Source of the DNA: a virus
DNA length: 26,453 nt
Strand: one strand, 5' to 3'
IMG/VR virus record: IMGVR_UViG_3300010885_067916
Span: 1-26,453 of that record
The notes beneath the pieces are model-generated. The model was not told the origin of the DNA. It searched no databases and saw only the letters and a list, made by a program, of their open reading frames with translations. Positions 1 through 25,697 of the stretch are shown here, piece after piece. A program made the translations under genes and the position numbers. Every line of letters begins with the position of its first letter. Position 1 is the stretch's first letter.

Positions 1-3000
1 ATTCTCTTCTGGAGCATAGCTGGTTTCTGGTGTTACGAATCCATCACCTTCTAAAATAATATCTGATGGTGCTATTCCCACTGCTGATCCAAAAAGACCG
101 CCACTGATCAATGAATCTAGTGTGCGATCATCCGTGGGTGTTAGAACTCCATCATCATCAAAAGGTATAAACTGTACTTCATCACCATTGCCAACCACCG
201 AGCTGTCATCGGGTATAACTGTGAAAGTTTTGGTAGATCCATCGCCTCTAAATACTAGTGATGTTTGTCTCACACCATTAATGTACACTGTATAAACATC
301 TGTTGCTGATGGTGCTGTTGAGAAAGTAAAATTGACAGTGCTTCCATCGCCATAGAATGTTTTTACTCGACTCAATCCATAATTGTCCCAAGGAGCGTCA
401 TACCATAACGATCTGTCCCATCCTTGGCCGCTATCAAATGCTAGCCCAGTTACCATAACTCCGCCGTAATCCACTCCGGTCATTAACTGTGACAACTCAT
501 TGCCCGGCATTCCGGCATCAGGAGCATATAATCCCAGTGTTCGTTCAGCAGCAGTGATATAAGGCTCATCTCCTCGCAATTTTGTTAGATATGTTGCCCC
601 ATCATCAAAATCTTCTGTGCTGGTAAAACTGCTATTAACTTTATAGAAGCCATCTTCGTATCTGATCAAATCATTGTAAGCATAGGTTGTTCCAGCTGTC
701 CAATCCAGCACCGTGGCTGTGGATTGCACTCGGTCGAATTTGATCGTTGTTGAAATATCTCTAACCAGGTCGTTTTGAAGATTGGCATAAGCTCGAGCAG
801 TATCGATTGGTGTGACTCCTCCGGCACCCCCACCTATCAGCACAACTCTGGGTGTTGCTGTGTAATTGGATCCTGGCGTTAAGACTATGATTTTACTCAC
901 GGATCCATTTTTAATAATGGCTTTGGCTGTGGCCTGTGTTGTGTCTGACAACGAATAGATGATGTAATCCATAGGCCTGTCAGATATTGCTGTATTTTGT
1001 ATCGACGATGGCATGTAGAATTCTATGTCTTCGTATTCATTGAACGTGAATAATTCGCTGGTCCCAGACCCTCCCGCCTGGCTGTCTGCTAGATTAGCGT
1101 CAGCAGATGCAGTATACAATGGATAAAAATATCCAAATTCTCCCGAGGTCGTTCCTCTGTTGCTTCGTCCCAACACAGCAAAAGGTCCTACGGTTGTTGT
1201 TGTGCCACCGACCAGTTTGACCGTCGGTGCGGTGATGTAACCACTGCCTCCCTTGGTGACCGTGATGCTGGACACATATTTTTTATAATTGTCTTTCCAA
1301 AAAAGGTAAGGATAACTCGCCATCACTCCAACGTCTTCTGCTGGGTCCACATTTCTTATGCGGGTTCCATCATAGAATGCCGGCAAGTCAAAATCTGTAT
1401 AGATTCCATCCTCATTATCCAATCCCGTGTAACCCAATTTGTATTCCCTGATCTTGGTGTGGAAAGGTTTGACCTCATTGATGTAACTTTCTATGTAGTC
1501 GTCTGTGTTGACCTTGTATGTTTTTCTTTGGTTCAAAGGTCTTACGCTGTTGTTTACATTTATGAATGACGTTTTGAATAACCAATCGACGTATAGTTGT
1601 TCTTCCAACACTCTTCTCAATCCTATCAAGAATATGTTATTGTATTCTATGTTTAAATCCCCTACGAAAATATCATCTCTCAATGCCGTTAATATTTTTT
1701 TGGTCTCTGTCGTCGGAGATTGATCAAAGAAATTATCATCGAAAGTGTCTGTGCCTTCAAAACCCGAACTAGTGGATTGATAGTTGTAAAGTCCTGTGGA
1801 CAATTGTATGGTGCCGTTTTGCGTGGCCACATTTTTAAATCCGTTCGTGGTCTTTTGGAATATTTTCCATCCCCCTGTGTCAGACTTTAAAATTTTAACA
1901 TATTTTTCCACTTCTAGATCCGTCAGTGTATCTAATTCGTATTGATATGTCAATTGTTTGTCTATAACGGTATCTATATCCACACCTTCATCATACCAGT
2001 CAATTAAATTATAATAGGCACTGGTCTTGTAAGTTTGCACCTTGAATCTATTCCATGATGCGCCATCCCAATTGTATATCGCCCAATAGCCATTGCTATT
2101 TTCTTCATCGGCTCTCACAAGTGCGTTCACTGTGCCACTGATGTCTTGTGTGTTGATATAGGTCAAATCTGCATATGTATCCAAGACGATATCCCATTCT
2201 CCCGATTGCTCCGTTGGTTCTGGATCTGCAGAATTTAAATTAGTGTAGCTGATAGTATTAGCCAATTGATTTTTTTTCAATATATCATTGCTATAATCTA
2301 TTATTTGTTTCAGAGCAGCAAATCTATCCACATACCAACTTTGACGTGGTCTTATTTTGTTTCCGTATCTTTGATTTGTGGGTAGATTTAGATCCGGCAC
2401 CTCGTTTCCTAGGTCGTCTACTCCTATCAAGCTATCCCACCATTTTTTCTCTAATACTTCATTAGGACGATCGTTCTTATCTCCTTCTTTGAAAATTTTC
2501 CATACCGCATGTATGTCTGATTCGTTCTCATTTTTTCTGTATGTAATGTTTAGAACCGTGTTTCCATTGACTAGACTGTCTTTGACATTGAAAGTTATGA
2601 TTCCATTTTTTTCTGATATTGTAAAATATTTAATGCCACTGCCGATGGGATTTGTTATAATATTAGATATGTAGGATGTGGTATTTTTTCTTGTCGTAAC
2701 GCTTTCATTTATTGCAGGTAGAAAAACAGAATTTTTAACCCAATAATAATAATAATTTAAAAATCCATTAGACCTAGAGTCATATTTTTGTTTGACTGTA
2801 AGCACGGTGTTGTCTGGATGCAATGGAGTGCCCGATATTCTTTTAGATAATCCATCTGCTGTGTCAGCTTTTGCGGCCCACTCCGATGGTAGATAGGTTG
2901 ATTCTATCCACTCATAGATGTCCACTGTTGATCCAGGAAATAGTTTACCCCAATTTTTTGTTTTGTATTCCTGTCCATCTTGTTCATACCATAACCATCT

Positions 3001-6000
3001 CACGGTGCTCATGTCCCACCATACTTCTCCGATGTGTTCTTCTCCCCACGCAATGTTGGGACTGACTGTTTTTCCTGCTGTTCCTACGTTGTATACTGCT
3101 GGATCCCATTCGGTCTTGTAATTGATCTCTCTGTCCGCTATGCCCAATATTCTGCCCTTGATTGGATCATAATAATCCAGATAATCAGTAATTTGATTTT
3201 TAGAGGTATCAAATATAAATGCTGATTCTATCTTATTGTTATCAACAAGATTTTCTTCAACCGCTCTTTCCTGCCATGCATATTGTTCTGGAATTGTGAG
3301 GTCGAATATCGTTGTCAATCCAACATTTGTGCCTAAAACATCTTCTCCCGTATCTCCTGGTGCTCCTATAAAAATTGAAGTATCTGTTATAAACACGCCT
3401 TTTCCAAAATCGTCGTTGGTGTTAACTTTGGATGTTATCAATTTATCATCAATTACGAATTTTGTGTTGTATCTTGTGGCAGTGAAAGCGCCTCCAGAAC
3501 CTATGTTGAGATCTACTATTTCGGTGTCTTGCAGATCGAATGTGGTCAGTCCGTTATCAAATTTTATGATTCTTTTATTAGCAAATTTTTCTGCTCCTAT
3601 TACTAACCTATCACCAGTTTGATTTATAGAGATGCTGGATCCAAATCTCATATTGGTGTCTGTTTCCGGAGCTGATATGGTCTGTTCTAATGTGTAAATT
3701 GGTGTGGACGCATCTGCGTTCCATTTATAATAATACACTGCACCGGCATCATCTTGTTCTCCGTTGTCAACTCCTGGCGAAGAAATCACTAAAGTTTCTC
3801 CATCTTTGCTCATTGCGATACTTTCGCCAAAACTATTGTTGAGTGTGCTGCCATCGGCACTGATTCCATACAACGTTTGCCTATGAACAAAATTTAAGGT
3901 GGTGCTGCCATCATTTTCTGTGTGATTGCTTGTGAATATTTCTACTTTTCCTGCCGTGCCTGGGCTGACAGAACTGATTGCTACTATGTCTCCATTGTCG
4001 TTTGTTGATATTCTGTGTCCAAATCTTTTATTCGATCCTGGATCGTTGCTCACTATGGATGATTTTTGTGACCAAGTCTCCAGTGTACTGCCATCCAGTC
4101 CTGCCACCCAAGAATATACATATACTATACCATTGTTATTATCATAACCTGGGGCACCAACAAAAAGGTATTTTGGTGCAATTTCTTGTGTGCTATCTAG
4201 GGTTGGTTCGGACACCGAGGTGGACCAACCAAAATTTAAATTCTCTAACAGCGAGCTGTTATCCGATGGTGGTATGATCGTCTCTAACAGATCATAATTT
4301 TTGGTAGAATTATTCCAAAGATAAACCTTGATCAATCCTGCTTTGTCATGTCTGGTACTTCCGTCTGGGGATATTGTATTGGTGTAAGGAGCTCCTGCAA
4401 TAATAAAGTTTTCATCAGTACTAATCGATAGACTCTCTCCCAGTCTAGAATTGTTATTGTTATTATCAGTCATAGAAATACTGCTAAGAATATTAAATGA
4501 TGCTCCTGGAGAATTTTCTTGTCTATAGAAAAAATTTATTGTGCCTTGCCCTAGACCCGGAGAAGAGACAGCCATAAATTTTCCATCATTGCGAGCCACT
4601 ATCTTGTAACCAAAATATTGATTGTTGTCAAAATCCGGGGATGATAAAAATATAGATTGATAAGGATCTACTTTTTCATAAATTTTCCATTTACTTCCTA
4701 CATTATCTACAAATATTTTATCTCCTGTTATTTGATTTGTTTCGTCTCTTTTTCGATAGATATTATAAGATATCAGCTCATTGATATTATCCATAGTGTC
4801 CACTCTCACACTGATAAAATTATAAACATTACCATAGGTGTTCAGTGTTGAATCATCTGCTGCTATCACATTAGTACTCGTTGACAATGTATTAATTTGA
4901 TCAAACTCAATAATGAAACTTTTATTAGATGGCACGGAAGAAATTTTATAGACTCCATTTAAATTTATAAATTGGCTATTTGATATCGCAACGTAATCTC
5001 CACTTGACAAAGAATGAACTTTTGACAAATTAATTAATAATGCTCCTGTATTGCTTATGATCGATATTGAGATAATTTTTGATCCTGTAAATGTTAATCT
5101 TTTTACGTCCCAATCGTTGTTGGATTTTTTTGCTATCCATATGAGATCATCTTTTTTTAATTGATTGACATCAAGATTTAAAATTTCTTCTTCGTTTAAT
5201 GCCGTATGCTGAACATCCGATAATCTAGGATATCCTGCCGTTTTAAATTTTTGTACGGTGTCTCTATCAGTGCCTTCATTGGCATAATCATATTTTAAAA
5301 AAGTTTCCGCTGCAGTATATTCTAAAGGTTTTTGATATAGATCGTCTTTTATCACAGCGACCGATCTTGACCAACTGACCTCGTCAACTGGGTTGTCTAT
5401 CAATTCAATGCTTTGTATGTTGTTCGTAAAAACGTCATTTGGCATTCGTATTTGAATGGCACTTCTTCCTTCTATGTTCCCAAATTCTCCAACTTTTATC
5501 ATCCATTCTGGATAGATGTTCAAAGAAATGTCTTCATCTAAAAATTTAGATTTGATTAATTTGTTTATGGCATTTAATGTGCCTTTTTCTCTGATAAATC
5601 CTTGATAAAATTTATATTGAGAAACTTTGTTCACCAAAAGATTTTCTAAATAATCCCTTGATTGATATCCTATCAAATGTTGAGCTAATTTTTGTTGGCT
5701 CTCATCAAAGTTATTGCTCTCTAGATTATAAAAATCATTAAATTGTGAAATTTTATAGTCAAAGTTAGGTATTAATTGTGCCGCTGGTTTATCGTTTTTA
5801 TTCTGCCAATATTCAGCATTAAATGTATCTCCCGAATTGTGATTAATTTTTGACACATAAAATTTGGCATTGTATTCTACTGTGTCACCGATTTGATAAT
5901 CTGTATTTGAGTTCCATATGCTAATCTTTGCTTCGTCGAATATGAATCCTGGGGAGTAATAATCACCATTCCAATCACCGGTCTTCCATCCAATTAATTT

Positions 6001-9000
6001 CAGTCTCTGTTGTCGGAATCCTGTTGCCAATTGTAATATGATATCTGCGAACACCGTTATGTTATCAAACAAGAGAATATGTTCTTTCTGTATGGTATTC
6101 ATAGTAATATTGTAAATTCCTATCTCTGGGTCCTTGCTGACTATTTCAAACAGTGTGCCTATCCTTTTGGTGCTGATCAATTTAACATCAACAGTTCTTC
6201 CGCCTGCATCTAATACAGTGTATTCTCCTTGTAAGTTTTGTAATTTTCCCACAACACTGTCCACTGTTCTTAAATTAAATCCTTCTGCTCCCGGACTTAA
6301 TGTGATCGCAGAACCAGGCGCCCATCCTTGACGGGTCCAATATAGAAATTCTTTTGCCGACATTTCCCAGTTCGCTGTTTCTTGTAGTTCTTTGCTGAAT
6401 CTATCAAAAACAAACCCCTCCGATTCAAGATATTTGCCATATCCTATCAAGAAATCTACTACCGATTGCACATCTTTGAACACTGTGCCATAGGTAATTA
6501 TTTTCTCTTTATTTTTCCAATCTTTATAGATTATGGCTCTAGCGTTGCCGGCATCGATCGTATAGTTGTTGCTATTTTTTGAAGGTTCAAAAATTTTAAA
6601 ATATGGTCTAATTGTATTATAACCGATAACCTTGTAACCACCTTCCAATGTGCTGCCATCACCTGTGGTGGCTGTGTTCAGCTCTACTAGCACTCCTGAA
6701 TATTCAAAAGTTTTGATAGGATTGCTTGATCTAAATAAAATTTTATAATTTTCATCAGGTATAAATTGTGAACCTGCTGTGGATCCTGGACTAACGCTGT
6801 CTGTTAAAACTTTTAAATTTTGTTTGTCAGTGAATCCTCCTAATTTGTATGCTAATTGTACATTGAGATTCTTCATTTTGTCATAAAAGAATACTGCAGG
6901 ATCTAGATTATTCTTTATAAGATAGTTGACCACAAAAGGTTGATATCCTGCTGTCATATAACGTGTGGTTACTCCTGTTGCAGGATCAGTAACAATTTCT
7001 AAATGATATTTTGCTCTTCTCAATGTTTGGGCAACTCGAGTATCTTTGTCTATGACGTTTCCTGCCAAATTATTGGTTAATCTACTATTATCTAAAAATA
7101 ATCCAAAAAATTTCGCTGGTCTTGTTAATGCTAATAATTTTACTACAGAAAAAGGATATTGAGAACTTCTACGCCAAGCTGTTTCAACAGGAGACTGGTC
7201 TCCAAATTTCCAAATTTTATTAATACCTTTTTCGTTATATCCATCGATTATGCCTATTTCTATGGGAGATCTAAGATTTCCGTTTTCATCCACAGGCAAA
7301 TAATTTAAAAGATCGGCTCTTATGTATCTTTCTACAGTTTCATTTTTTCCAGAATCAAATCCTGTCGCAAGGTCATTCCATAGTAATTCATTGCCTGAGC
7401 TGTATGGTCCTGGACCATAAGTATCTTCCCACCATGCTGGTTGCTCGCTATATCCCAACATTTCCCAAGGATGAGTATGTGGTCTATCGGTGTCATAGAA
7501 ATATTTAAATATACCTCTCCAATGCCCGGGAAGATATTCTCCATCTAATATATTTTTGTTATCGCTGTAATTGTAAGTGAATGGATCTGATTCTTCATAG
7601 TTGTCATTATTTTGATAATCTAATCCATTTCTTCCTGCCCAGATATAAAAATCATAACTTAAAATATTATCAACTTCGGATAACTTATATTCTCCGGCAA
7701 CAAATGCCGATGGTTTAACTTCGTGCTCTGTTAATAATTCTGTATTGTACAAAGTTTTACAATTGTTGTAAATCCTTTTTTCCAGTTCCAACAATAGGTC
7801 ATCTCTGTAGTCTCCATAAGCCACCGTCCTGCTGCCATCGTGTCCCACTATCACATACGTGGGCTCTAAATATGTGTCGTCAAGAACTTTTTCTGGTTTG
7901 AATCGGGGATAAATTCCTAATTTTGTTGGCGTTGGTGGTACGAAACTGCCTGTGGTATTGTTATAATCTTTGATTGTTATTTTATCACCTTCGGACAAAG
8001 ACGTTGTAATGTTTATACTGTCATCTGTATCACTAAATGTATAATCTTGTCCTAATATCAATTGAACATCGTTAAGATAAACATATATTGCTCTATTACT
8101 AATTATTGTGATATCAAATTGAGAATCAATAGCATATTGTGTTTCTGAACTGTCTTGGACAGTGTAATTTCTAATTGTAAAATTTTCTCCATATCCTATC
8201 ATGTCTTCATAAAAAAATGGAAAACTATTATCTTTATCTCCAATTATATTTTTAATAATGTTGTCTACTTGATCAGGGATAATTATATCATACGACGAAT
8301 TAGAAGAATATTTTAAAAAATTTTCTTTAAATTTTTGATATTCTGTATTGCAATATTCTATAGCACTAATGGCATTGCTATTTTTGTCTATCAAACAAAA
8401 AATTGCCTGTGGCAGAGGAGCAGAATGTTGTAATATAGTTCCTCCTCTCAATCTAACATCAGGAACGTCTCTTAAATTACTGTTGCCAGGAGTATTTCCA
8501 ATAAAATTATTATTTTTTTCATTGATATCATGCAGATGATTTAAAATTTGTCCAAATGTTAATTCTGATATCTGCTCGTTAAATGGATTGGTTTCAAGAT
8601 TTTCCGGAACTTCGTACAATCCTTTGTTTTTAATTTTCTTCGAAGAACTATAACATTGTATTTTTACTAAATCGTTAACTGCAAGATCATAAGTGAATTT
8701 CACATATCTATTTGTTGCTCCATTAACTAATTCGTAATCTATATCTACATCCTGTGATTGATAATTTACATCTACATGTATTTCTAAATCCGTTAAACTA
8801 GCACTGTTAGCATAAACATCTATAGGAAATCTTCTTTTTTCATCAGCAGTGACAATAAAGGTTCTGATTACTCTTTGTCTGCTTGTTTCTTCTCTTTTTA
8901 TCCATGAAGTTTTAAATTCTTTGCTTCCATTCTTTCTGTTATAAGCTACCTGTGCAGTAGCAAAATCTCTAGTAATAAATTCTTCTCCACTTTTATAACT

Positions 9001-10926
9001 GAAAGAACCCGATGATATATCTGTTGAGAATAACATATTGCCAACATTATTAATTGTGCTATATTTGATTTTTAATCCTAGCACAGTATCTGTCGGCGAA
9101 GAATCAGATATTGTGTAAGCAAAAACAGTGGCTCCATGGAAAGTAGAATTAGGATAAGTTGCTGGATCATGCAATGGTATAAGATCGTCATCATATAAAT
9201 TGAATAGTGGTTGTTGATTCAATTTAGTTTTTTGTTGACCTGTCGTCCATTCTCCTTCTACAGAACTATAAAAAAAAGTTTTTCCTTGATTTTGAGCTCC
9301 GAGTTCTACAAATACAGAATCTCCATCTGTTGGAGTAACTTCATTATCTGCCGTTAATTTTAATGTTGATACTTCTTCTCCTGCTACTGTAACAAAATTT
9401 ACTTGGTATATTTTGTTATTCACTAAAGGATCATTATCATTTGTTATTAATACTCTCATTCCGTCGGATACAGGAACACCATCAATAATATAACCTGTTT
9501 TATTCACTATGTCTGAAAAAGCATCTTGTGTAACTGTGTCTATTAATGCCACTGATTTTTTTGCTCTTATTCCATGATCATATAATCCTAACCCGGAATC
9601 AAATTCAATAATGGGTCTTTTTGCTCTATCGGCTTCTAATAAATTTGGAGTGTATCCTGTAGCTTCGGCTGTGGCCTCTATTACATCTCTGTGGAACCAA
9701 CGATTATATCGACTCCATGCATTACCATCTAGGCTATCTCTTTTGATTGTAATATAATCTGGTGTTTCTGGTCTGTAAAAACTGATCGCATATGGTCTGG
9801 TATCATAGACTACTGTGTCATATAATTCTGTTGTTTCTGTAGCATAAGATTCTGGCGTAATTAGTGTTGAGGTATCTGTTAAGGTGATTAAATCTCCTAC
9901 ACCTTCAACGTAAAATTCTTTCTTTTTATATGTTTCACTGGTTACATTTTCATCAAATCGTAATTTCATTCCATTGCTCAATTTAATTCCTGATGCCAAA
10001 GTATAATTTTTTGTTCCAACAATTTCGTGTAATACATCAATCTTACTGGTTTCAGAAATTGTCTTAATTAATAATTCTCCCTGCATCTGACTATGACTAC
10101 CACACTGATAATATAATACATCAGGAGCATCTGATGGTATTGTAAAAATTAAAGTTCCTTTTTCTGTTCCATTGCCTGTGATCCCTGAAGTATAGATAAC
10201 TGACGTGATGCCATCTTCGGCTATGCCTGTTTCAAATGGTTCTGTCATTATGTAAAAAGGGTGTCCCGGAGCATCTATGATAAACTTATAGGTGTTGCCT
10301 TTATACAAGGTTATTGTGGGGTTGTTATTCTCTTCGTATGTACTAAAGATATATGCAGTTTGTCCCACATGGTTTACTTTTATTTCAGTTACTGTGTTAG
10401 GTCCACTGCTGTTTATTAATATTGGATTTGGTCCTTCTGGCAACCAATAATATTCTCTATAATTAATCAATTTGTCAAAATCTATTGCTGGATTCCAGCT
10501 ATATAATTCTTCTTTGTTCAATCTATCGTGATTGTCTGTGTTGCCTCCTAGGAAATTGATTTGATTGATATAATCATCATAGGTTCCTGTAAATTTAACT
10601 TGGTCCTCTGGATTGATCGAAGAAGTATCTTTATCAGTATATGTGACTGTGGGTTCAAGTTGATAATCACTTCTATCTTTGCTTGGAGATTCAATGTATT
10701 TGTCCGCAGGTATTCTTGTGTATGCATAAGTTCTTCCTATGTATCCGTCTAGTCTTGTTAAACTACCTGGTTGTATTAATTGATCTAATGTGCTGGATAA
10801 AAATCTATGATTTGAATCGGTTCTATAAAATGTAGGAAGATGTGCTATTGATCTTCTTAATATCACTCCATCTTTGTTAGTGACTTCTTCATAGTTTGTC
10901 TTTGTATTAATCGGCGAGTCTACCAT
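1..10926 (-). CDS. Giant baseplate-associated structural protein, gene-7 position (C terminus beyond the window)
   Basis: Reading the minus strand from the ATG at 10926, the frame stays open to base 1, giving 3642 codons with no stop; the C terminus lies outside the window. The gene starts 2 bases after the gp6 stop, with AGGA eight bases before the ATG, so it is the next gene of the baseplate operon and occupies the place of T4 gene 7 (wedge protein, 1032 residues). Visible parts: cupredoxin-like domain about 185-290; CBM5/12-like motif 1669-1710; seven FG-GAP repeats about 2090-2560; a tryptophan-rich block 2630-2730 (W2636, W2637, YYYYW ending at 2729); GSGY-type repeats near 3227 and 3353; GDGST repeats near 3526. 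I find only about five cysteines. Known: marine T4-like phages often carry very large uncharacterised structural proteins here. Inference: a wedge or peripheral baseplate protein that also carries host-contact domains. Homology to gp7 itself is not shown. Confidence 0.85.
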   Translation of the reverse strand, partial: MVDSPINTKTNYEEVTNKDGVILRRSIAHLPTFYRTDSNHRFLSSTLDQLIQPGSLTRLDGYIGRTYAYTRIPADKYIESPSKDRSDYQLEPTVTYTDKDTSSINPEDQVKFTGTYDDYINQINFLGGNTDNHDRLNKEELYSWNPAIDFDKLINYREYYWLPEGPNPILINSSGPNTVTEIKVNHVGQTAYIFSTYEENNNPTITLYKGNTYKFIIDAPGHPFYIMTEPFETGIAEDGITSVIYTSGITGNGTEKGTLIFTIPSDAPDVLYYQCGSHSQMQGELLIKTISETSKIDVLHEIVGTKNYTLASGIKLSNGMKLRFDENVTSETYKKKEFYVEGVGDLITLTDTSTLITPESYATETTELYDTVVYDTRPYAISFYRPETPDYITIKRDSLDGNAWSRYNRWFHRDVIEATAEATGYTPNLLEADRAKRPIIEFDSGLGLYDHGIRAKKSVALIDTVTQDAFSDIVNKTGYIIDGVPVSDGMRVLITNDNDPLVNNKIYQVNFVTVAGEEVSTLKLTADNEVTPTDGDSVFVELGAQNQGKTFFYSSVEGEWTTGQQKTKLNQQPLFNLYDDDLIPLHDPATYPNSTFHGATVFAYTISDSSPTDTVLGLKIKYSTINNVGNMLFSTDISSGSFSYKSGEEFITRDFATAQVAYNRKNGSKEFKTSWIKREETSRQRVIRTFIVTADEKRRFPIDVYANSASLTDLEIHVDVNYQSQDVDIDYELVNGATNRYVKFTYDLAVNDLVKIQCYSSSKKIKNKGLYEVPENLETNPFNEQISELTFGQILNHLHDINEKNNNFIGNTPGNSNLRDVPDVRLRGGTILQHSAPLPQAIFCLIDKNSNAISAIEYCNTEYQKFKENFLKYSSNSSYDIIIPDQVDNIIKNIIGDKDNSFPFFYEDMIGYGENFTIRNYTVQDSSETQYAIDSQFDITIISNRAIYVYLNDVQLILGQDYTFSDTDDSINITTSLSEGDKITIKDYNNTTGSFVPPTPTKLGIYPRFKPEKVLDDTYLEPTYVIVGHDGSRTVAYGDYRDDLLLELEKRIYNNCKTLYNTELLTEHEVKPSAFVAGEYKLSEVDNILSYDFYIWAGRNGLDYQNNDNYEESDPFTYNYSDNKNILDGEYLPGHWRGIFKYFYDTDRPHTHPWEMLGYSEQPAWWEDTYGPGPYSSGNELLWNDLATGFDSGKNETVERYIRADLLNYLPVDENGNLRSPIEIGIIDGYNEKGINKIWKFGDQSPVETAWRRSSQYPFSVVKLLALTRPAKFFGLFLDNSRLTNNLAGNVIDKDTRVAQTLRRAKYHLEIVTDPATGVTTRYMTAGYQPFVVNYLIKNNLDPAVFFYDKMKNLNVQLAYKLGGFTDKQNLKVLTDSVSPGSTAGSQFIPDENYKILFRSSNPIKTFEYSGVLVELNTATTGDGSTLEGGYKVIGYNTIRPYFKIFEPSKNSNNYTIDAGNARAIIYKDWKNKEKIITYGTVFKDVQSVVDFLIGYGKYLESEGFVFDRFSKELQETANWEMSAKEFLYWTRQGWAPGSAITLSPGAEGFNLRTVDSVVGKLQNLQGEYTVLDAGGRTVDVKLISTKRIGTLFEIVSKDPEIGIYNITMNTIQKEHILLFDNITVFADIILQLATGFRQQRLKLIGWKTGDWNGDYYSPGFIFDEAKISIWNSNTDYQIGDTVEYNAKFYVSKINHNSGDTFNAEYWQNKNDKPAAQLIPNFDYKISQFNDFYNLESNNFDESQQKLAQHLIGYQSRDYLENLLVNKVSQYKFYQGFIREKGTLNAINKLIKSKFLDEDISLNIYPEWMIKVGEFGNIEGRSAIQIRMPNDVFTNNIQSIELIDNPVDEVSWSRSVAVIKDDLYQKPLEYTAAETFLKYDYANEGTDRDTVQKFKTAGYPRLSDVQHTALNEEEILNLDVNQLKKDDLIWIAKKSNNDWDVKRLTFTGSKIISISIISNTGALLINLSKVHSLSSGDYVAISNSQFINLNGVYKISSVPSNKSFIIEFDQINTLSTSTNVIAADDSTLNTYGNVYNFISVRVDTMDNINELISYNIYRKRDETNQITGDKIFVDNVGSKWKIYEKVDPYQSIFLSSPDFDNNQYFGYKIVARNDGKFMAVSSPGLGQGTINFFYRQENSPGASFNILSSISMTDNNNNNSRLGESLSISTDENFIIAGAPYTNTISPDGSTRHDKAGLIKVYLWNNSTKNYDLLETIIPPSDNSSLLENLNFGWSTSVSEPTLDSTQEIAPKYLFVGAPGYDNNNGIVYVYSWVAGLDGSTLETWSQKSSIVSNDPGSNKRFGHRISTNDNGDIVAISSVSPGTAGKVEIFTSNHTENDGSTTLNFVHRQTLYGISADGSTLNNSFGESIAMSKDGETLVISSPGVDNGEQDDAGAVYYYKWNADASTPIYTLEQTISAPETDTNMRFGSSISINQTGDRLVIGAEKFANKRIIKFDNGLTTFDLQDTEIVDLNIGSGGAFTATRYNTKFVIDDKLITSKVNTNDDFGKGVFITDTSIFIGAPGDTGEDVLGTNVGLTTIFDLTIPEQYAWQERAVEENLVDNNKIESAFIFDTSKNQITDYLDYYDPIKGRILGIADREINYKTEWDPAVYNVGTAGKTVSPNIAWGEEHIGEVWWDMSTVRWLWYEQDGQEYKTKNWGKLFPGSTVDIYEWIESTYLPSEWAAKADTADGLSKRISGTPLHPDNTVLTVKQKYDSRSNGFLNYYYYWVKNSVFLPAINESVTTRKNTTSYISNIITNPIGSGIKYFTISEKNGIITFNVKDSLVNGNTVLNITYRKNENESDIHAVWKIFKEGDKNDRPNEVLEKKWWDSLIGVDDLGNEVPDLNLPTNQRYGNKIRPRQSWYVDRFAALKQIIDYSNDILKKNQLANTISYTNLNSADPEPTEQSGEWDIVLDTYADLTYINTQDISGTVNALVRADEENSNGYWAIYNWDGASWNRFKVQTYKTSAYYNLIDWYDEGVDIDTVIDKQLTYQYELDTLTDLEVEKYVKILKSDTGGWKIFQKTTNGFKNVATQNGTIQLSTGLYNYQSTSSGFEGTDTFDDNFFDQSPTTETKKILTALRDDIFVGDLNIEYNNIFLIGLRRVLEEQLYVDWLFKTSFINVNNSVRPLNQRKTYKVNTDDYIESYINEVKPFHTKIREYKLGYTGLDNEDGIYTDFDLPAFYDGTRIRNVDPAEDVGVMASYPYLFWKDNYKKYVSSITVTKGGSGYITAPTVKLVGGTTTTVGPFAVLGRSNRGTTSGEFGYFYPLYTASADANLADSQAGGSGTSELFTFNEYEDIEFYMPSSIQNTAISDRPMDYIIYSLSDTTQATAKAIIKNGSVSKIIVLTPGSNYTATPRVVLIGGGAGGVTPIDTARAYANLQNDLVRDISTTIKFDRVQSTATVLDWTAGTTYAYNDLIRYEDGFYKVNSSFTSTEDFDDGATYLTKLRGDEPYITAAERTLGLYAPDAGMPGNELSQLMTGVDYGGVMVTGLAFDSGQGWDRSLWYDAPWDNYGLSRVKTFYGDGSTVNFTFSTAPSATDVYTVYINGVRQTSLVFRGDGSTKTFTVIPDDSSVVGNGDEVQFIPFDDDGVLTPTDDRTLDSLISGGLFGSAVGIAPSDIILEGDGFVTPETSYAPEEN
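800..1270 (-). repeat. Two GSGY-type repeats near the visible C-terminal end of the giant protein
   Basis: Two related units appear: SSITVTKGGSGYITAPTVKL around residue 3227 and SVSKIIVLTPGSNYTATPRV around residue 3353. Both follow the pattern V-x-x-I-x-V-x-x-x-G-S-x-Y-x-x-x-P-x-V seen repeatedly in marine phage tail and fibre proteins. They suggest that the C-terminal part is fibre-like. Further to the left, residues 3526-3529 and a second copy soon after carry GDGST, another common phage fibre repeat start. Confidence 0.5.
3250..4660 (-). repeat. Seven FG-GAP repeats: predicted beta-propeller inside the giant protein (residues ~2090-2560)
   Basis: Seven units each begin with FG or LG followed by a Ser/Ile-rich strand, then a polar turn (often with DG), then a hydrophobic strand ending in GAP, SPG or a similar triplet, then an aromatic strand such as VYVYSW or VYYYKW. 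The first unit residues are F2105, L2162, F2232, F2302, F2366, F2428 and F2507, so spacings are 57, 70, 70, 64, 62 and 79. Seven units of about 65 residues fit a seven-bladed integrin-type propeller. The repeats have diverged as protein and are not DNA repeats. The function as an adhesin or ligand-binding platform is inferred. Confidence 0.75.
5795..5922 (-). other. CBM5/12-like (chitin-binding type 3) motif in the giant protein (residues ~1669-1710)
   Basis: The segment shows W1671, then Y-x-x-GD-x-V-x-Y, then FYVSK, and closes with a YW pair at W1707. This is the short tryptophan/tyrosine pattern of carbohydrate-binding modules of families 5/12. A similar but weaker unit with W3409 and a TTY...NDLIRY...FYKV pattern lies near nucleotides 575-705. 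Such modules in phage tails often contact surface polysaccharide. Family membership is judged by eye only. Confidence 0.4.
10055..10375 (-). other. Cupredoxin-like domain in the giant protein (residues ~185-290)
   Basis: This segment reads as a beta-rich domain with a GHPFYI motif (H222) and, 53 residues later, YYQCGSHSQM (C275, H278, M281). The order His, then Cys-x-x-His, then Met is that of type-1 copper sites such as plastocyanin, where the first His and the Cys are 47 apart. The Met is two residues closer to the His than in plastocyanin. Domains of this look occur in other marine phage tail proteins. Copper binding is inferred from the ligands only; the domain may be purely structural. 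Boundaries are approximate. Confidence 0.6.
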
Positions 10927-10928
10927 GA

Positions 10929-13900
10929 TTAGTATCCTGTTCCACTGCTACCTGTATCGGATCTTGATCCTGTTTTTGAATTGGTTATTGAAGATACTGC
11001 TGATGTTGATCTATTGCTGGTAGTTGTACCTGTGGTGCTGGTCACTACTACGCCATTAGCTACTAATTGATTGGCTCCAATAGCATCAATAATTTCAACA
11101 TTATCAACGGTTGCACCACTGATAAAAATTTCATCTGCAGCACCACTGATCTGGAATAATGATCCGAATGATTGTCCTGCTTGATTTGGTACTATTACAA
11201 CTGTAAGAAGATCTGGTGCTAATTCATTATGAATGTATGCTGCTAATTCCGTAAAATAAAAAGTATCTCCAAAATCAAAATTATTTAGAGCAAAAAATTC
11301 GTTAATAGCTCGAATAACTCTAGTTTTGATTACAGCATTAGTGACATTTGTAGAACTATTTTTAACCACTTTGAATGTGGCTTGAAATTCTTCGGCAGCT
11401 TGATTTCCAAATAAAATTTTGTATTTTACTGGATGATAAATTATTTGATCTGATAAACCTTTTAGAGGATCTAACATTCCTGAATATGAAATTCTCAATT
11501 GATCTGCTGTGGAAGGCAATGGTTCTTCTCCTCCTTGAGATAGCCATGTTCTGTATAATTGATCGTATGCTCTTTCCAACATATAAACATCCATGATATT
11601 GGTTTGAGACGGATCAATTCTTATTCCTTGTCCAGCATTGTGTTTGTATTGAAATTCTATAGATCCTCTGCCTTTTCTAGCATAATAATCAGTAGTAGTT
11701 TCTAATAATCCAGAATCTGTGCTGTATTTTTTAATAACATTTTCTTCTTCGGAATAAAAATAAAATAATTGTCCATCACTGTAAGTTCCTGGAAGTGTGA
11801 TATCATTTTCATTCTCGGTTACTATAAAATTACTCGAAGCATATGGTCTATATCTTTCTATGTTATCGTAACTGTTATATTTCTCAAAAAAAACAAATTT
11901 TGTAGAGACATTGATATCAGGCTCTACCACAATATCAAAAATGTCCGGATTATCTACCACGCCATCGTCATCATCATCATAGAAACCCACTTTGACTTTT
12001 CTATTGTCTTGATATCCATCAGATTCTTCCACTGTATCCACCACCTGCCAAGCGATTGGATAACCCACGGGCAATCCCGTACTAGGTATGATACTGCTTC
12101 TGAGAATTTTTACCGTATCCTTAACTGATTTTCCAGAAATGTAATCATAGATTCTTTCGGTCTTATCATAATGAAATTTATTATCGCCTTCTGATTCGAA
12201 AATATAATCAAGTTTTCTATAGCTGACTGTGTAGGTATTGCCGTCATTTTCAAATTTAAACCACCAACTAGCATCTTGATTGCTGAGAGTTATGTCGCCA
12301 GCATTATCAAGTGAAAAAATAGACCCTGTGTCTAGATTGGCTGCTGTTATTACTTTCCATTCTGCATCTTGTTCATCGTATCTCAATCCAAATTCTTCAA
12401 AATTCTCTATTCTGTCCTGTAGATCTGTTTTTAATACCGAATCAAATATGGTGACAAACTTAGGAAATATAGCATTTAATACAGCTCCTTCTGGTACGAT
12501 ATCATTTAATGTGATTGGTCCTTCTCCAGATTCAAGATTTCCTTCTCCACCGTTGGCTCCATCTCCTACCACTGCTGAAATTTTAGCCCAGGCTCTGTCC
12601 TCTGCTAGATCTGTGCCAGCGGTTACTAATTTTCCATTTAAAAATTTTCTTGTGTCTGGAGATGTAAATTTGATCAAAGATCCCGCTTTGGCATATTTTA
12701 AGTTGCTTGTGGCAAAATCTCCCACCACTAGTGGACCCCCGGTCGCAAAATACCCAGTATTGGTGTTTGTGCCTGTTGTTGTGCTGACCCAATTGGCTGA
12801 TAATGTGCTTAGATCTTTAGTTCCGTATTTTATATAATAGAATTGTCTTGAATATGCTTCCGTGAGTTTGCTTTCTACCAATCGATTTATCACATCTAAT
12901 ATTTCATTCCTGTTTGCAAATGTAAAGGTAAATTGAGGTGAGCTCTCTTCTCTGTACAATATTCCGTCATCCGCAAACACTGAAACATTGCTGTAGGCTC
13001 CTGTAGGATCCAAAATTTCTTTAGACCTGCTGATACCGCTGGCGCTCCTGTTCACTGACTTGACCTTGATTATTTCTTGAGAAACCGATAATGGCACTAT
13101 GTTATAATCTTCTGCTGTGATCATTCTGTTCTGCGAATAGTATACCTGTGGCGCTTTAGTTCTAATGCTGTCATCACTCTCTGTGGCGGCAGAATTGTAT
13201 ATAGATTGTTGTAAAGATGCTGTGATAGTCAACGTTTGTAGAGATCCATTAACATCTTGATACTGCATACTAAATTGTATATTTTGCATGTCAGATGGTT
13301 GTATAGAATATTTTGCATTGTCACTAATTCTGTAATAAGATCTAAATGTTCCCGAAGGTATGTTGGCAAAGTTTCCATCTCCAAAAACAAGATCTATTGC
13401 GTCGTTATTTCTGGTTACTACAGTATAGATATCTCTTACATTCGCTGACAACGAATTATAGATAGTGTTGTTGCCCACTAGGTCGGGCACACGTGTCCAT
13501 AATTTTTCTATCTGTCCAAAGTCGTCTAATTTGTATAACCACACATCATCGTTATTAATATTATTAACTGATATATTTTTAACATAATTTGTGGTAGGTT
13601 GATTTATCGAGAAAGTATTGTTGGACAAAGATCCTTGTTTGAATAAGAAAAAGAATCCAGAATTAGGACTAGAATCTCCTGCGCCATCATTCCTGTAGAC
13701 ATAATTCATTGCTCCTCCTGGTATAGGAGATAATTCGTATATTGATTCTGAGTCTGATACTGAAGCCGGTACTATTTCAAAACCTCTAGTTATACCACTG
13801 ATATTTTTTGTGAATTGAAAAATAGGCACATCTACATTTGTGGTATTGGCTGTATAAATTTCTGTTTTGATTCCTCCGATATTTTTTGATTCTAGTGGTT

Positions 13901-14414
13901 TGCCGAAACGTTGTCCATCTGGACAAGCAGCATTCAATATATTGATAATTTGTTCTCTATAATTGGCATTGGTACTGTCATTCCAAACAATTGTGGAGTT
14001 AGATAAATTAAATCCTGAGCTGTCGGTGACTGCTTGCGTGGTCCTAACAGATACTAATTTTAATAATCCTGTAGCAGGTTTGTTTCTCTTGGCATTATAA
14101 TTGATCAGCCGAGCCAATCTCAGAATAGAATCTCTCCTGCTGGCAGTCTCGATAAAATTTTCTCGAGCATTGAGGTCCACTCTGAAGCTCAATGATTGTG
14201 CGATATAAGCGATAAGGTCTATCAGTGCCACATATTCTGATGATTCTACAAAATCATTGAAATCATCTGGATAGTTTTCTCTGAGATAGGCGATCATGGT
14301 CCTTCTCAGCGTCTCGAAATCGTAGGATTTGAAATCTGCCTGTTGGAAAGCAGTGTAAATTTTGCGCCAATCTTCGGCTACTAGCAAGCGATTTTGTCTG
14401 TCAGTGGTGGCCAT
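10929..14414 (-). CDS. 6: Baseplate wedge protein gp6, enlarged
   Basis: The 1161-residue product has the typical marine gp6 N terminus (W16 to about residue 120: SYDFETLRRTMIAYLRENYP, then a SLSFRVDLNARENFIETASRRDS-like helix region and LINYNAKRNKPATG). It ends with the baseplate J-like part (about 1010-1110, AINEFFALNNFDFGDTFYFT). T4 gp6 has 660 residues, so roughly 400-500 extra residues are inserted, mainly within about 500-950. In T4, two gp6 and one gp7 form the wedge trunk that closes the inner baseplate ring. Residues 813-824 read DDDDDGVVDNPD, a thrombospondin type-3-like calcium loop. The last 35 residues are a Ser/Thr/Gly-rich tail. A CATAAATA late-promoter-like box lies just before the start; there is no clear Shine-Dalgarno. 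The gene follows gp25 in the operon, as expected. Confidence 0.9.
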   Translation of the reverse strand: MATTDRQNRLLVAEDWRKIYTAFQQADFKSYDFETLRRTMIAYLRENYPDDFNDFVESSEYVALIDLIAYIAQSLSFRVDLNARENFIETASRRDSILRLARLINYNAKRNKPATGLLKLVSVRTTQAVTDSSGFNLSNSTIVWNDSTNANYREQIINILNAACPDGQRFGKPLESKNIGGIKTEIYTANTTNVDVPIFQFTKNISGITRGFEIVPASVSDSESIYELSPIPGGAMNYVYRNDGAGDSSPNSGFFFLFKQGSLSNNTFSINQPTTNYVKNISVNNINNDDVWLYKLDDFGQIEKLWTRVPDLVGNNTIYNSLSANVRDIYTVVTRNNDAIDLVFGDGNFANIPSGTFRSYYRISDNAKYSIQPSDMQNIQFSMQYQDVNGSLQTLTITASLQQSIYNSAATESDDSIRTKAPQVYYSQNRMITAEDYNIVPLSVSQEIIKVKSVNRSASGISRSKEILDPTGAYSNVSVFADDGILYREESSPQFTFTFANRNEILDVINRLVESKLTEAYSRQFYYIKYGTKDLSTLSANWVSTTTGTNTNTGYFATGGPLVVGDFATSNLKYAKAGSLIKFTSPDTRKFLNGKLVTAGTDLAEDRAWAKISAVVGDGANGGEGNLESGEGPITLNDIVPEGAVLNAIFPKFVTIFDSVLKTDLQDRIENFEEFGLRYDEQDAEWKVITAANLDTGSIFSLDNAGDITLSNQDASWWFKFENDGNTYTVSYRKLDYIFESEGDNKFHYDKTERIYDYISGKSVKDTVKILRSSIIPSTGLPVGYPIAWQVVDTVEESDGYQDNRKVKVGFYDDDDDGVVDNPDIFDIVVEPDINVSTKFVFFEKYNSYDNIERYRPYASSNFIVTENENDITLPGTYSDGQLFYFYSEEENVIKKYSTDSGLLETTTDYYARKGRGSIEFQYKHNAGQGIRIDPSQTNIMDVYMLERAYDQLYRTWLSQGGEEPLPSTADQLRISYSGMLDPLKGLSDQIIYHPVKYKILFGNQAAEEFQATFKVVKNSSTNVTNAVIKTRVIRAINEFFALNNFDFGDTFYFTELAAYIHNELAPDLLTVVIVPNQAGQSFGSLFQISGAADEIFISGATVDNVEIIDAIGANQLVANGVVVTSTTGTTTSNRSTSAVSSITNSKTGSRSDTGSSGTGY

Positions 14415-14457: not shown

Positions 14458-14865
14458 TTAAGAAAGGCGCAGAGCAGCGTTTTCATCGAAACTCAACACC
14501 AATTTCTCGGTAATATTGTAGGGCACATAGACTATTGTGGCCTGCACCGATATGCCGTGTTCTGTCTCGCTGACTAAGATTTCCTTGGTGTTCAATCGAG
14601 GATCTGCGTTGAGATTCTGTGCAATGTCATCCGCTACTGCTTGTTTTACGGCATCTGTCAGTGGCTCGAACAGCACATCGTATATTATCGTGCCAAATTC
14701 GGGATTCTCTATCCTCTCCCCTTTGCGTACACTGAGACGATTGATCAGATCCTGTTTGATCAACTCAAAATCATAGAGTTTGAAATTGGTGTTCTCGGAT
14801 CTAGAGCTAAATCCTTTAAAAATTTGCGTTTTGATGCCGGCTGAATTTTTATTTACGTATGCCAT
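14458..14865 (-). CDS. 25: Baseplate wedge protein gp25 (GPW/gp25 family)
   Basis: The 135-residue protein is close to T4 gp25 (132 residues). It carries the family's central signature: an RLSVRKGERIENPEFGT block around residues 44-64, followed by YDVLFEPLTDAVK and the C-terminal strand pair VQATIVYVPYNITEKLVL. In T4-like baseplates gp25 sits near the hub, contacts the gp6 core bundle and helps to start sheath assembly; its EPR-type core resembles one found in type VI secretion. It begins three bases after the gp5-like gene stops and is followed by gp6. A TATAAAAT stretch directly before its ATG resembles a late promoter but is not convincing. Confidence 0.92.
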   Translation of the reverse strand: MAYVNKNSAGIKTQIFKGFSSRSENTNFKLYDFELIKQDLINRLSVRKGERIENPEFGTIIYDVLFEPLTDAVKQAVADDIAQNLNADPRLNTKEILVSETEHGISVQATIVYVPYNITEKLVLSFDENAALRLS

Positions 14866-14868
14866 ATT

Positions 14869-17352
14869 TTATAAGTCTATGTAACTTCCCCCTCCTCCAA
14901 ATCCAAATAAACTACCTATCGCAGATCCTATGCTGGCTAACTGTGAACTGATAGCACTGCCAAAATCTGTCACTAGACTACTTATTTGGGTTACTGAGGT
15001 GATGTCTGACCCCATCACGTTTTTATAAACATCGTTCACTATGTTATAGGTACCTATCGCCTGGTTGATTTGCCCCAGCCCTGGTATCTGTCCTATGATT
15101 TGTCCTGGAATCTGTCCTAATATCTGTCCTACTCCGGGTATCGTGGGTATTACTATTCCTCCGGTCGGAGAGAATATATTTCCAAATATATTTCCGCCAC
15201 CAAATGGTCCGTCTGTGGAGATGAAACTGCTCACGGATGTGTTGTCTCCATAATTGGTATACACGGCATCTCCCGCGGTTGCGGCTCCGGCTGGAACTCC
15301 ATAGTCGGTGTACTCTCGATCTCCTGCATTTTTTGTAAAAAATTTATCTTTCACTGTGTTATAGGTTTTTAATACATTACCCGCCGTGCTTGCTATGTTC
15401 TTGACAGAACTCAAATTTCCACTCGCCGACTTTAATGGTGTTGATATGGCCTGTCCTAGATTCCCCGCAGAATATAACAATCCTGCCTGACTGACGAATA
15501 CCTGATCTTTTAAAATATTGACGTTGGCTCCTGTCAAAGAGGTCACAGTTTGTTGAATTACCGAACTCACTCCCTCTGCGATTGGAGATATGTTGAATGG
15601 GCCGTTGTCTCGTAAATTATATAATTTTGCATAATCTGTCGCGATATCGTTGGCTGCCTTTTGTATTTTTTGTATGTCTCCTGTGGGTTGATTTGCCGCT
15701 CCGGCAACCTTGTTCACTGCTGTTGGTACCTGTCCCAAACCGTCTTTTTGTAATCTATATTGAAGGTCCGCGGCAAACTGCATAATCCTTCTAGAAGGAT
15801 CATCGCTTAGCCTGTTCCTGTGGGCTATGAATTCTGGTGTTCCCGGGGTGTTGCTCAAAACGCTGTTGTAATCACCTCCAACAAAAGTTACTATCTTATC
15901 AAAATGATATGGGAAAGGTTCATGTGTACACACCCGCATACCCGACATAGAGATATTGGAATTCTGCTCAACCTTCAATGGACCATAGGTATATTTGTTC
16001 GCCGGATTCACATCAGGTATCGCCTCTCTCAGGGTGCCTGTGCCGGATGGATCTTGTACCGAGGTCCTTTCATAGGTCGCTATTATGTTGGGACTGGTCC
16101 CTATGCTATTAAAATGTATCTGGCTGCCTGTTAAATGTGTTTGTCCCGATGCCATGTGCAATTGTGTCTCGGCTGCATAGGACACGATCGATCCGTTGGG
16201 TGCTTTATTGGTAATGCTGCCGTATCTTGCCTGTGATTGTATATCGGTATCGGAATATGTCTGAATCGCTCCTCCATCGATGACCAATTTTCCCACGGCA
16301 CTCATTTTTATTTGTTTTCTGGCAAACATGTTTATGTTGTTGTCACTGTGTAGATTCATGTCTCCTCTGGATCTAATATTAACCCCACCACCTGAATAAA
16401 TGTCTATGGATCCGTTGGCAGAAAATTCCATCCATACGTTGCCGGACCCATTTGCTATATAGACTACGCCATACGTATCATTCAACAATAATTGATGTCC
16501 CGAAGCAGATCTCAGTCTTATCAATTGGTTGTCTCCTGCGTTATCTCCATCATCCATTACGAAGGTGTGTCCCGTCAATCTATCTATGATCTCCTGCTGT
16601 TTTGAATCTTCTACTCCGACCACCTTTGGAGAAGAACTATTATCTCTCCTTCCAGGGGTGCTTATACCAAAAACATTGCTTGGGCTTTCTCTTCTGGCCG
16701 ATGATGTAGTGGTTCCTCGGACTGTGTCCTGCACCAACCCTTGCTGTCGGAGAGTCTCAGCAAATGGATGTATAGGATGTTTTAATATTGGATCCACAGG
16801 ACTGCTGCCTATCACATCTAGTGTAGCTCTGTTGATTTCACCTGCTGGTAACTTTTCCGTGCCATACATGCTCTGTTTGCTGTCGGTTTCTGAGCCGGTA
16901 TCCATTAATCCTGTTTTTTCTGTAGCAGCTATACCAGGAACCATGTGATTCGTTAGGGGTTCTTGAACACACCCTATCCAAAAGGCCTGATCTACTTTTC
17001 CTTCGACAAATATGACCAAAACTTTTGTGTCTATGTCGGGTGGTACCATCCACATACCATAGGAATGCTGTGATGATTTATAATTGTAGGGATCATCCTG
17101 TCCTAGATATTTTGTGGTTTTGGCTCCATAAAAAGGAGCCAGATACTCGCAAGTGACTAATTTCCCTGTTGATGGTTCAGCATAACCTGCGATGGAAGGT
17201 ATGTACACTCCCAATCTTCCCATTCTTAGAGGATCTTGATTGGATTTTACTATTCCTATGTATGGGCCAAATAGCAAGCTGCCCTGTTGTGTGTCAACTA
17301 TCGGCAACGATGGTGTTGCTGCATCTCCTCCTAGGTGTGTCTTTAGACTCAT
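14869..17352 (-). CDS. 5: Baseplate central spike protein, gp5-like, without a lysozyme domain
   Basis: The 827-residue product starts with an OB-fold-like region (about 25-140: GPYIGIVKSNQDPLRMGRLG, later MWMVPPDIDTKVLVIFVEGK and AFWIGCVQEP), as in gp5/VgrG spike proteins. From about 260 to 430 it shows short repeating beta-helix units (for example SANGSIDIYSGGGVNIRSRG), the needle. In T4 a lysozyme domain of about 160 residues lies between these parts. Here residues 140-260 are a low-complexity, Ser/Thr/Pro-rich linker with no lysozyme motif. About 400 residues follow the helix, including a proline-glycine repeat (about 730-765) and a glycine-rich end; I cannot assign these. The ATG overlaps the previous gene's stop (TAATG). 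Role: membrane-piercing spike trimer at the tail tip. Confidence 0.8.
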   Translation of the reverse strand: MSLKTHLGGDAATPSLPIVDTQQGSLLFGPYIGIVKSNQDPLRMGRLGVYIPSIAGYAEPSTGKLVTCEYLAPFYGAKTTKYLGQDDPYNYKSSQHSYGMWMVPPDIDTKVLVIFVEGKVDQAFWIGCVQEPLTNHMVPGIAATEKTGLMDTGSETDSKQSMYGTEKLPAGEINRATLDVIGSSPVDPILKHPIHPFAETLRQQGLVQDTVRGTTTSSARRESPSNVFGISTPGRRDNSSSPKVVGVEDSKQQEIIDRLTGHTFVMDDGDNAGDNQLIRLRSASGHQLLLNDTYGVVYIANGSGNVWMEFSANGSIDIYSGGGVNIRSRGDMNLHSDNNINMFARKQIKMSAVGKLVIDGGAIQTYSDTDIQSQARYGSITNKAPNGSIVSYAAETQLHMASGQTHLTGSQIHFNSIGTSPNIIATYERTSVQDPSGTGTLREAIPDVNPANKYTYGPLKVEQNSNISMSGMRVCTHEPFPYHFDKIVTFVGGDYNSVLSNTPGTPEFIAHRNRLSDDPSRRIMQFAADLQYRLQKDGLGQVPTAVNKVAGAANQPTGDIQKIQKAANDIATDYAKLYNLRDNGPFNISPIAEGVSSVIQQTVTSLTGANVNILKDQVFVSQAGLLYSAGNLGQAISTPLKSASGNLSSVKNIASTAGNVLKTYNTVKDKFFTKNAGDREYTDYGVPAGAATAGDAVYTNYGDNTSVSSFISTDGPFGGGNIFGNIFSPTGGIVIPTIPGVGQILGQIPGQIIGQIPGLGQINQAIGTYNIVNDVYKNVMGSDITSVTQISSLVTDFGSAISSQLASIGSAIGSLFGFGGGGSYIDL
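15060..15165 (-). repeat. IPG/GQIPG repeat tract in the gp5-like protein
   Basis: On the minus strand this stretch encodes about 35 residues built from IPG and GQ units (IPTIPGVGQILGQIPGQIIG, then QIPGLGQI). On the DNA level it gives several near-copies of ATCTGTCCT on the plus strand. It is hydrophobic and flexible, and lies C-terminal to the beta-helix. Its role is unknown. Confidence 0.7.
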
Positions 17353-19533: not shown

Positions 19534-19833
19534 TTAAAAACCTAGATCGTTTCTTAAATTGCTTAACTTGGGCAACTGAATGGTTTTGCCTGGAGAAAAA
19601 TCATATATGGGGTCTTCCAATACATTAGGATTCCGTTGCACAAACACCCACCATAGTCTGGGCGTGCCATATAAATCGTAGGCCAACAGGTCCGGTCTAT
19701 AAGCATAAATTCTATCAATGGTATAACTGACATCATCTTTCTCTGCAGTTATTGTTCTAGGTTGCAATAGATCTAAACTGATATTGTTTTGTGTGGTTCC
19801 AAAATAAGGACTGGTATTGCTATATGTAGCCAT
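19534..19833 (-). CDS. 53: Baseplate wedge protein gp53
   Basis: The 99-residue protein matches the conserved part of gp53: a Tyr-rich N terminus, then AYRPDLLAYDLYGTPRLWWV and FVQRNPNVLEDPIYDFSPGK, ending in an IQLPKL strand. This is the LysM-like core that in T4 clamps wedges together around the gp6-gp25 junction. T4 gp53 has 196 residues, so this is a short form. Its ATG overlaps the stop of the tube-cap gene (TAATG) and it ends one base before the hub-position gene, so translation is probably coupled. Confidence 0.85.
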   Translation of the reverse strand: MATYSNTSPYFGTTQNNISLDLLQPRTITAEKDDVSYTIDRIYAYRPDLLAYDLYGTPRLWWVFVQRNPNVLEDPIYDFSPGKTIQLPKLSNLRNDLGF

Positions 19834-25438: not shown

Positions 25439-25697
25439 ATGCACCAAACCATCGTCGTGCTATGGGTGTTCTATGTTTTAAACACCATAGAGTCCATTCT
25501 CGGTCGGTAAATTTTGCTCGTACCACAATGCGATCTTTCTCAAAAGCAATATCACATAGATTCTTTATGTATAATTCCTGCAGATGTGGGAAATGTGCTA
25601 TCCACCCTTCAAATAATAATTGTGCTTGAAAAGTGTCTTCGTATGATCCTACAGTTTTTAGTTCGCCTATGATTCTAAGTGTTCCGTGTTGTTTCAT
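25437..25697 (-). CDS. Hypothetical protein, 86 residues
   Basis: I do not recognise this protein. It is mixed alpha/beta with a basic, Trp-rich C terminus (DREWTLWCLKHRTPIARRWF) and no signal peptide or membrane segment. Its ATG overlaps the stop of the GIY-YIG gene (ATGA), so the two are co-translated. This pairing with a nuclease, and the absence of other genes in the unit, are the only hints to function. The stop lies within the downstream T run of the terminator. Confidence 0.75.
   Translation of the reverse strand: MKQHGTLRIIGELKTVGSYEDTFQAQLLFEGWIAHFPHLQELYIKNLCDIAFEKDRIVVRAKFTDREWTLWCLKHRTPIARRWFGA

Follow-up and report, generated by a model that had tools for sequence, protein, structure and literature searches.

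The window, by which we mean the entire 26,453-base stretch of viral DNA from IMG/VR analyzed here, carries on its minus strand an operon in which genes for a 293-aa structural protein, gp53, a 726-aa structural protein, a gp5-type hub protein, gp25 and a gp6-type protein are followed by a giant gene, the 3' end of which lies beyond the window. The genes are as follows, from the giant gene back to the first gene of the operon:

1..10926, minus strand: giant gene, family PHROG 10938; 3642 codons in the window, 3' end missing
10929..14414, minus strand: gp6-type baseplate wedge protein, 1161 aa (phrog_10646, E 8e-289; phrog_219, E 8e-18)
14458..14865, minus strand: gp25-type wedge protein, 135 aa (PF04965, E 8e-8)
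14869..17352, minus strand: gp5/VgrG-type hub protein, 827 aa (phrog_13211, E 5e-34; PF04717, E 6e-7)
17352..19532, minus strand: virion structural protein, 726 aa (phrog_11190, E 8e-33)
19534..19833, minus strand: gp53-type wedge protein, 99 aa (phrog_7145, E 1e-28; PF11246, E 2e-5)
19833..20714, minus strand: virion structural protein, 293 aa, first gene of the operon (phrog_12050, E 1e-49)

Only 2 bases separate the stop codon of the gp6-type gene from the start of the giant gene. The gp6-type protein is up to 38-40% identical to its counterparts in jumbo phages, and the 726-aa structural protein is possibly also a hub protein. On the opposite strand before the operon lie genes that match gp55, gp47 and gp46 of PA5oct and RaK2 by order. 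Two small open reading frames (24588-25154 and 25694-26158, both minus strand) are candidates, based on likeness by eye, for a 2OG-oxygenase-like protein and a GIY-YIG nuclease.

The order of genes from the 293-aa protein through the giant equals that in PA5oct; the same operon order is found in RaK2, PBECO4 and Munch, and part of it in CBB, XaC1, Atu_ph07 and Phosso. The giant gene follows gp25 and gp6 in PA5oct, Atu_ph07, Phosso, CBB, XaC1, PBECO4 and Munch, and it follows gp6 in RaK2. In the Salicola phage SCTP-2 (MF360958.1), the gp6-type gene is located ~95 kb from the giant gene and on the opposite strand and, therefore, the linkage between the two genes is not universal. Immediately upstream of the SCTP-2 giant gene is another frame, at least 9.1 kb long. 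In the Vibrio phage 2.275.O (L089:8055-11918), the protein in the gp6 slot is enlarged and annotated with a CBM5/12 module.

The giant frame starts with an ATG at 10926 and runs on the minus strand to position 1 as a single frame of 3642 codons with zero stops; the original prediction had described it in these terms, and on re-reading we found neither an in-frame stop nor a frameshift. By comparison, when the mononucleotides of the window were shuffled 100 times, the longest frame reached 185 codons. In the two nearest relatives (L002 and L003; 82-83% protein identity), the whole gene comprises 4311 codons to the stop, so that the window holds ~84% of a gene with an expected full length of ~4300 codons. 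A pattern scan of IMG/VR returned 149 stretches encoding relatives, and the median length was 4293 codons among the 53 closed frames of marine homologues in the loci that were kept. Compared with L002, dN is 0.104 and dS 1.264 over the giant frame (dN/dS ~0.08), with values of 0.05-0.14 in each scorable 300-codon block and synonymous saturation in one block. Thus, purifying selection acts on the whole length of the frame, and the giant frame is a real, intact gene; plus-strand open reading frames of 98-128 aa lie inside it, in keeping with the antisense shadows mentioned in the original prediction. In one relative (L037), the gene looks split at positions 7060-7150; we rejected a natural split, because the cause is a one-base deletion relative to the neighboring sequence L018, apparently a sequencing error or a defective copy. 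In another relative (L073:15465-15893), the frame stops early, after 4162 codons, and is followed by an overlapping 142-aa open reading frame, possibly reflecting another indel.

The giant belongs to a family that is already known in very large phages and has no assigned role in those records or papers. The whole protein matches the PHROG 10938 profile with E=0 and 1234 bits, and all of its pieces from residue 1 to ~3200 match this family. Blocks of 24-35% identity align it collinearly with jumbo-phage homologues through approximately residue 3216. The jumbo-phage giants RaK2 gp465, CBB_236, PA5oct gp355 (3857 aa) and Atu_ph07 gp180 are members of PHROG 10938, and phAPEC6 gp245 is assigned to them by its neighborhood; collinear similarity, the place after gp6 and a similar size are common to them and the giant of the window. 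The window phage is uncultured; the giants of the isolates have been seen in virions: PA5oct gp355 is marked ESI-MS/MS in its record, 21 peptides of CBB_236 were found in virions by mass spectrometry (PMC5259590), and 17 virion peptides were reported for the 382-kDa phAPEC6 gp245, which adjoins the wedge protein gp244 (PMC7247149). Pattern queries of the PA5oct and Phosso type returned no relatives from IMG/VR. The genome collection contains a single relative, an 8.5-kb contig (L295, CAJQJC010000008.1) with 57% identity; it is part of a Candidatus Pelagibacter metagenome-assembled genome and weakly hints at SAR11 as the host.

Along the giant, we distinguish the following modules and conserved blocks, all on the minus strand:

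10411..10926, minus strand: N-terminal block, residues 1-172 (LPxFYRTD..., YSWNPAIDFDKLINYREYYW), kept in all jumbo-phage homologues
10045..10401, minus strand: cupredoxin domain, residues 176-294, from a fold match and a type-1 copper ligand pattern
8614..8880, minus strand: beta domain, residues 683-771, resembling phage fibre or portal-tail attachment domains
5803..5916, minus strand: CBM5/12-like carbohydrate-binding module, residues 1671-1708 (PF02839, E 1.8e-6, above the Pfam cut-off)
5452..5775, minus strand: candidate gp7/gpI wedge core, residues 1718-1825 (LIPNFDYKISQF...RDYLENL...FYQGFIREKGTLNAINKL...PEWMIKVGEFG)
3352..4614, minus strand: FG-GAP repeats, residues 2105-2525 (PF14312, E 2e-14)
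1417..1674, minus strand: conserved block VDWxFKTSFI...INEVKPFHTKIREYKLGY, residues 3085-3170, from a 22-row alignment
844..1248, minus strand: GxGYTxxPxV-type repeats, residues 3227-3361 (phrog_701, E 3e-7; phrog_2885, E 2e-5)

Residues 1-912 were modelled with a mean pLDDT of 74; confidence is low (pLDDT ~30-55) up to approximately residue 140 of the N-terminal block and ~70-94 in the cupredoxin region. In BFVD, the N-terminal part of the giant has whole-length structural neighbors, including the Atu_ph07 protein. The cupredoxin domain matches rusticyanin (Foldseek E 4e-5; VIA Z 8.2, rmsd 2.3 over 95 residues, with matches spanning 90-97 residues), and the type-1 copper pattern consists of H222 and C275-x2-H278-x2-M281, with all four ligands present in 53 of 57 rows. 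The cupredoxin of the marine branch is apparently intact, with a predicted copper site. The C-terminal cupredoxin of cyanophage gp9 (PHROG 677) is ~35-40% identical to residues 171-289 of the window giant, and in the cyanophage S-SSM5 it has the same H...C-x2-H-x2-M pattern; however, it ends a fibre-connector protein in gp9, while it is located near the N-terminus in the giant. The beta domain at residues 683-771 aligns over 64-71 residues with 9efk_AE, 8i4m_M and 7rfv (VIA Z 8.4, 8.2 and 7.7), which is near chance level, and gives a weak signal with the gp10 profile (P 0.0085). The CBM5/12-like match is also found, weakly, in PA5oct and Phosso. By pattern, there are six FG-GAP repeats, with a seventh recognized by eye at ~2230, and the region is predicted to form a beta-propeller. 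In the block at residues 3085-3170, D75, W76, K114, P115, K119 and R121 are invariant in 22 rows. The marine giants, mostly 4264-4579 aa in length and divergent at the C-terminus, differ from the ten isolate homologues compared in their cupredoxin, which is absent from all ten based on an alignment gap, and in their FG-GAP repeats, which a pattern scan found in the marine proteins examined and in 0/10 of the isolate homologues. In the literature searched, we found no paper linking FG-GAP with phage and baseplate, or cupredoxin with phage and tail fiber. Based on the CBM5/12-like stretch, the FG-GAP repeats and the fibre-attachment-like domain, it is plausible that the giant makes contact with the host.

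Is the giant the gp7 of these phages? The original prediction had put it in the gene-7 slot, and the position bears this out, with the giant placed directly after gp25 and gp6, while direct homology to gp7 is suggestive only. T4 gp7, P2 gpI, Mu gp48 and TssG are regarded as related and form a heterotrimer with two gp6-type subunits (PMC6300606). T4 gp7 (1032 aa, the figure also given in the prediction), P2 gpI (176 aa), Mu gp48 and TssG of the T6SS all occupy the slot after gp6/gpJ, as does the giant, which, however, is four to twenty-four times longer than T4 gp7 and P2 gpI and has no significant T4 gp7 match. Searches with the profiles of T4 gp6, gp7, gp8, gp9 and gp10, both with the whole family and segment by segment, gave no significant match to the giant. 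Similarly, Tail_P2_I and Baseplate_wedge from Pfam and phrog_26741 found nothing in the window or the marine relatives, while in Atu_ph07 and Phosso the hits of phrog_26741 were limited to weak matches in repeats; PF09684 and PF23786 were not found in the giant; and when the full protein and profiles were used to search PDB sequences, only weak CBM or chance matches were returned.

Using a profile built from nine diverse proteins of the P2-gpI family, residues 1681-1890 of the giant ranked first among 100 sliding segments (P 4.4e-4; next region, 0.014). We regard this match as suggestive only, because P is ~0.04 after correction for the 100 segments and the site had been suspected by eye beforehand. 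For calibration, the accepted homologues gpI and T4 gp7 score just P 0.13 in the same test. In the alignment, KGTLNAINKL is matched with KGTIGAIRRV, and an E-W pair comes after it; both the KG(T) helix motif and the E-W pair of the giant resemble gpI, a weak shared core motif. K-G is invariant and E-W near-invariant across 22 diverse rows. When the KG motif was scored with an ungapped matrix, the result was no better than for shuffled sequence. For the gp7 core fold, a three-helix bundle and a trifurcation domain, residues 1420-2490 of the RaK2 homologue were modelled with AlphaFold, but the quality was too low for a usable match (pLDDT 51, core below 40). Matches to this region were confined to a small barrel (model residues 273-370); no gp7 fold came up among the fold matches, an outcome that does not argue for its absence. 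The N-terminal LP motif, considered as a gpI start, was rejected because it has no profile support.

No separate gene 7 was found that could compete for the role. Downstream of the giant gene, the relatives encode a 226-241-aa PHROG 11259 protein and fibre-like proteins and no gp7; specifically, the flanking sequence in L002 and in L039, a 196-kb relative, holds no separate intact gene 7 of the kind that had been named as evidence against the prediction. A search with the T4 gp7 profile detected no other gp7 in PA5oct, Atu_ph07, RaK2 and SCTP-2, each over its whole record, or in L002 or L039.

A second family of giants provides a precedent. In S-SSM5, the gene right after gp6 (SSSM5_094, L122:562-19077) codes for 6171 aa, and residues ~640-760, which come after ~600 residues of N-terminal repeats, match T4 gp7 with an hhalign probability of 96 (P 1.3e-9, residues 731-760); the protein also matches Baseplate_wedge from Pfam (1.8e-9) and the T4 gp7 family phrog_964 (1.7e-5, at gp7 residues 731-758). 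A survey of pelagimyophages and cyanomyophages stated that gp7 is absent and proposed VrlC as its substitute (PMC7029224). Contrary to that survey, the profile matches place the gp7 core inside the giant in at least S-SSM5. S-SSM5-type giants (PHROG 701, 2885 and 18802) share with the window giant the slot, the giant size and the GxGYT-P-V repeats, and the repeat region of the window giant aligns with the S-SSM5 giant at P 2e-5 (hhalign); however, they belong to another family, their inserted modules differ (YHYH, laminin-G-like), and in the S-SSM5 giant the gp7 core is recognizable.

The original prediction also held that the giant may merge the wedge, peripheral and host-contact functions that T4 divides among genes 7 to 10. 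We found no support for such a merger, and it did not hold for gp10: with the window itself being a fragment, we looked in relatives, and gp10-type proteins (phrog_958) are encoded by separate open reading frames in PA5oct (582 aa) and in the L039 record (650 and 578 aa; N-terminal part only), arguing that gp10 is not merged into the giant. The giant has no profile similarity to T4 gp8, gp9 or gp10. The profile that recognizes gp8 in T4 and S-SSM5 detected no gp8 gene in PA5oct, RaK2, SCTP-2 or L039, a result that does not establish a fusion of gp8 to the giant.

Altogether, we conclude that the giant is very probably a baseplate protein of the virion and assign a probability of roughly 0.68 to its being the equivalent of gp7. 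Alternatively, the giant could be a peripheral baseplate or adhesion protein that took the place of gene 7, with the core role of gp7 resting in another protein or in gp6 alone. The lack of significant similarity to T4 gp7, the carbohydrate-binding, FG-GAP, cupredoxin and fibre-attachment-like modules, and a gp6-type protein that is larger than T4 gp6 (1161 versus 660 aa) would all fit this alternative; however, most distant jumbo phages retain the giant immediately behind gp6, no other candidate for gp7 was found, and the giant itself has the KGT...EW motif, and we therefore consider it unlikely that a protein of this kind has replaced gp7.

We deem it improbable that the giant is a polyprotein that a phage protease cuts into several baseplate proteins, i.e., a functional fusion. 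T4-like phages have a prohead protease, and the giant is a very long multi-domain chain; however, the peptides from CBB and phAPEC6 were assigned to one full-size product, which alone cannot exclude cleavage, and no natural split form was found, the one split relative examined having a one-base deletion. That the giant is the longest gene in the window could also suggest a tape measure protein, an idea to which we give very little credence in view of the beta-rich modular content, the place after gp6 and gp25, the family annotation and the lack of any match to a tape-measure family. We regard an artefact, either a chance open frame or an assembly joint, as refuted: we found no evidence in its support, the low dN/dS extends along the frame, and the same frame recurs in dozens of independent contigs.

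In the mechanism that we infer for the gp7 equivalent, which comprises gp7 orthology, stoichiometry, gp6 pairing, host contact and signalling, the giant would fill the place of T4 gp7 in the virion baseplate by means of a small wedge core, for which residues 1718-1825 are the candidate, perhaps aided by the N-terminal block and the block near residues 3085-3170. This core would bind a pair of gp6-type chains, the product of the gene immediately upstream, so that each wedge would contain a single giant and each virion six. The remaining ~4,000 residues would be modules added before, inside and after the core. We speculate that these modules protrude from the wedge, make the baseplate more rigid and provide binding surfaces for fibres and for glycans of the cell surface, and that contact with the cell surface would be relayed to the gp6 ring and trigger sheath contraction.

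Contractile tails need gp7 to assemble their wedges. More broadly, we tentatively propose, at somewhat short of even odds and from sequence comparisons, that the gp7 that was reported absent from marine T4-like phages and has no annotation in jumbo T4-like phages may be present as unrelated-looking giants, in which a gp7/gpI core of ~100 residues is accompanied by thousands of module residues, and that the marine baseplates may carry a copper-binding cupredoxin, perhaps as a redox- or metal-dependent lock or as a structural metal site. We found no description of the equation with gp7 or of the marine cupredoxin and FG-GAP modules in the non-subscription literature searched. It is unusual for a tail protein to have a conserved type-1 copper motif, which is directly testable, and the giants are a clear target for structural biology in the cultivated phages PA5oct, RaK2 and phAPEC6. 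If the giants are gp7, then a single wedge gene has expanded four- to six-fold in several lineages, and published claims that gp7 is absent from marine T4-like phages need correcting.
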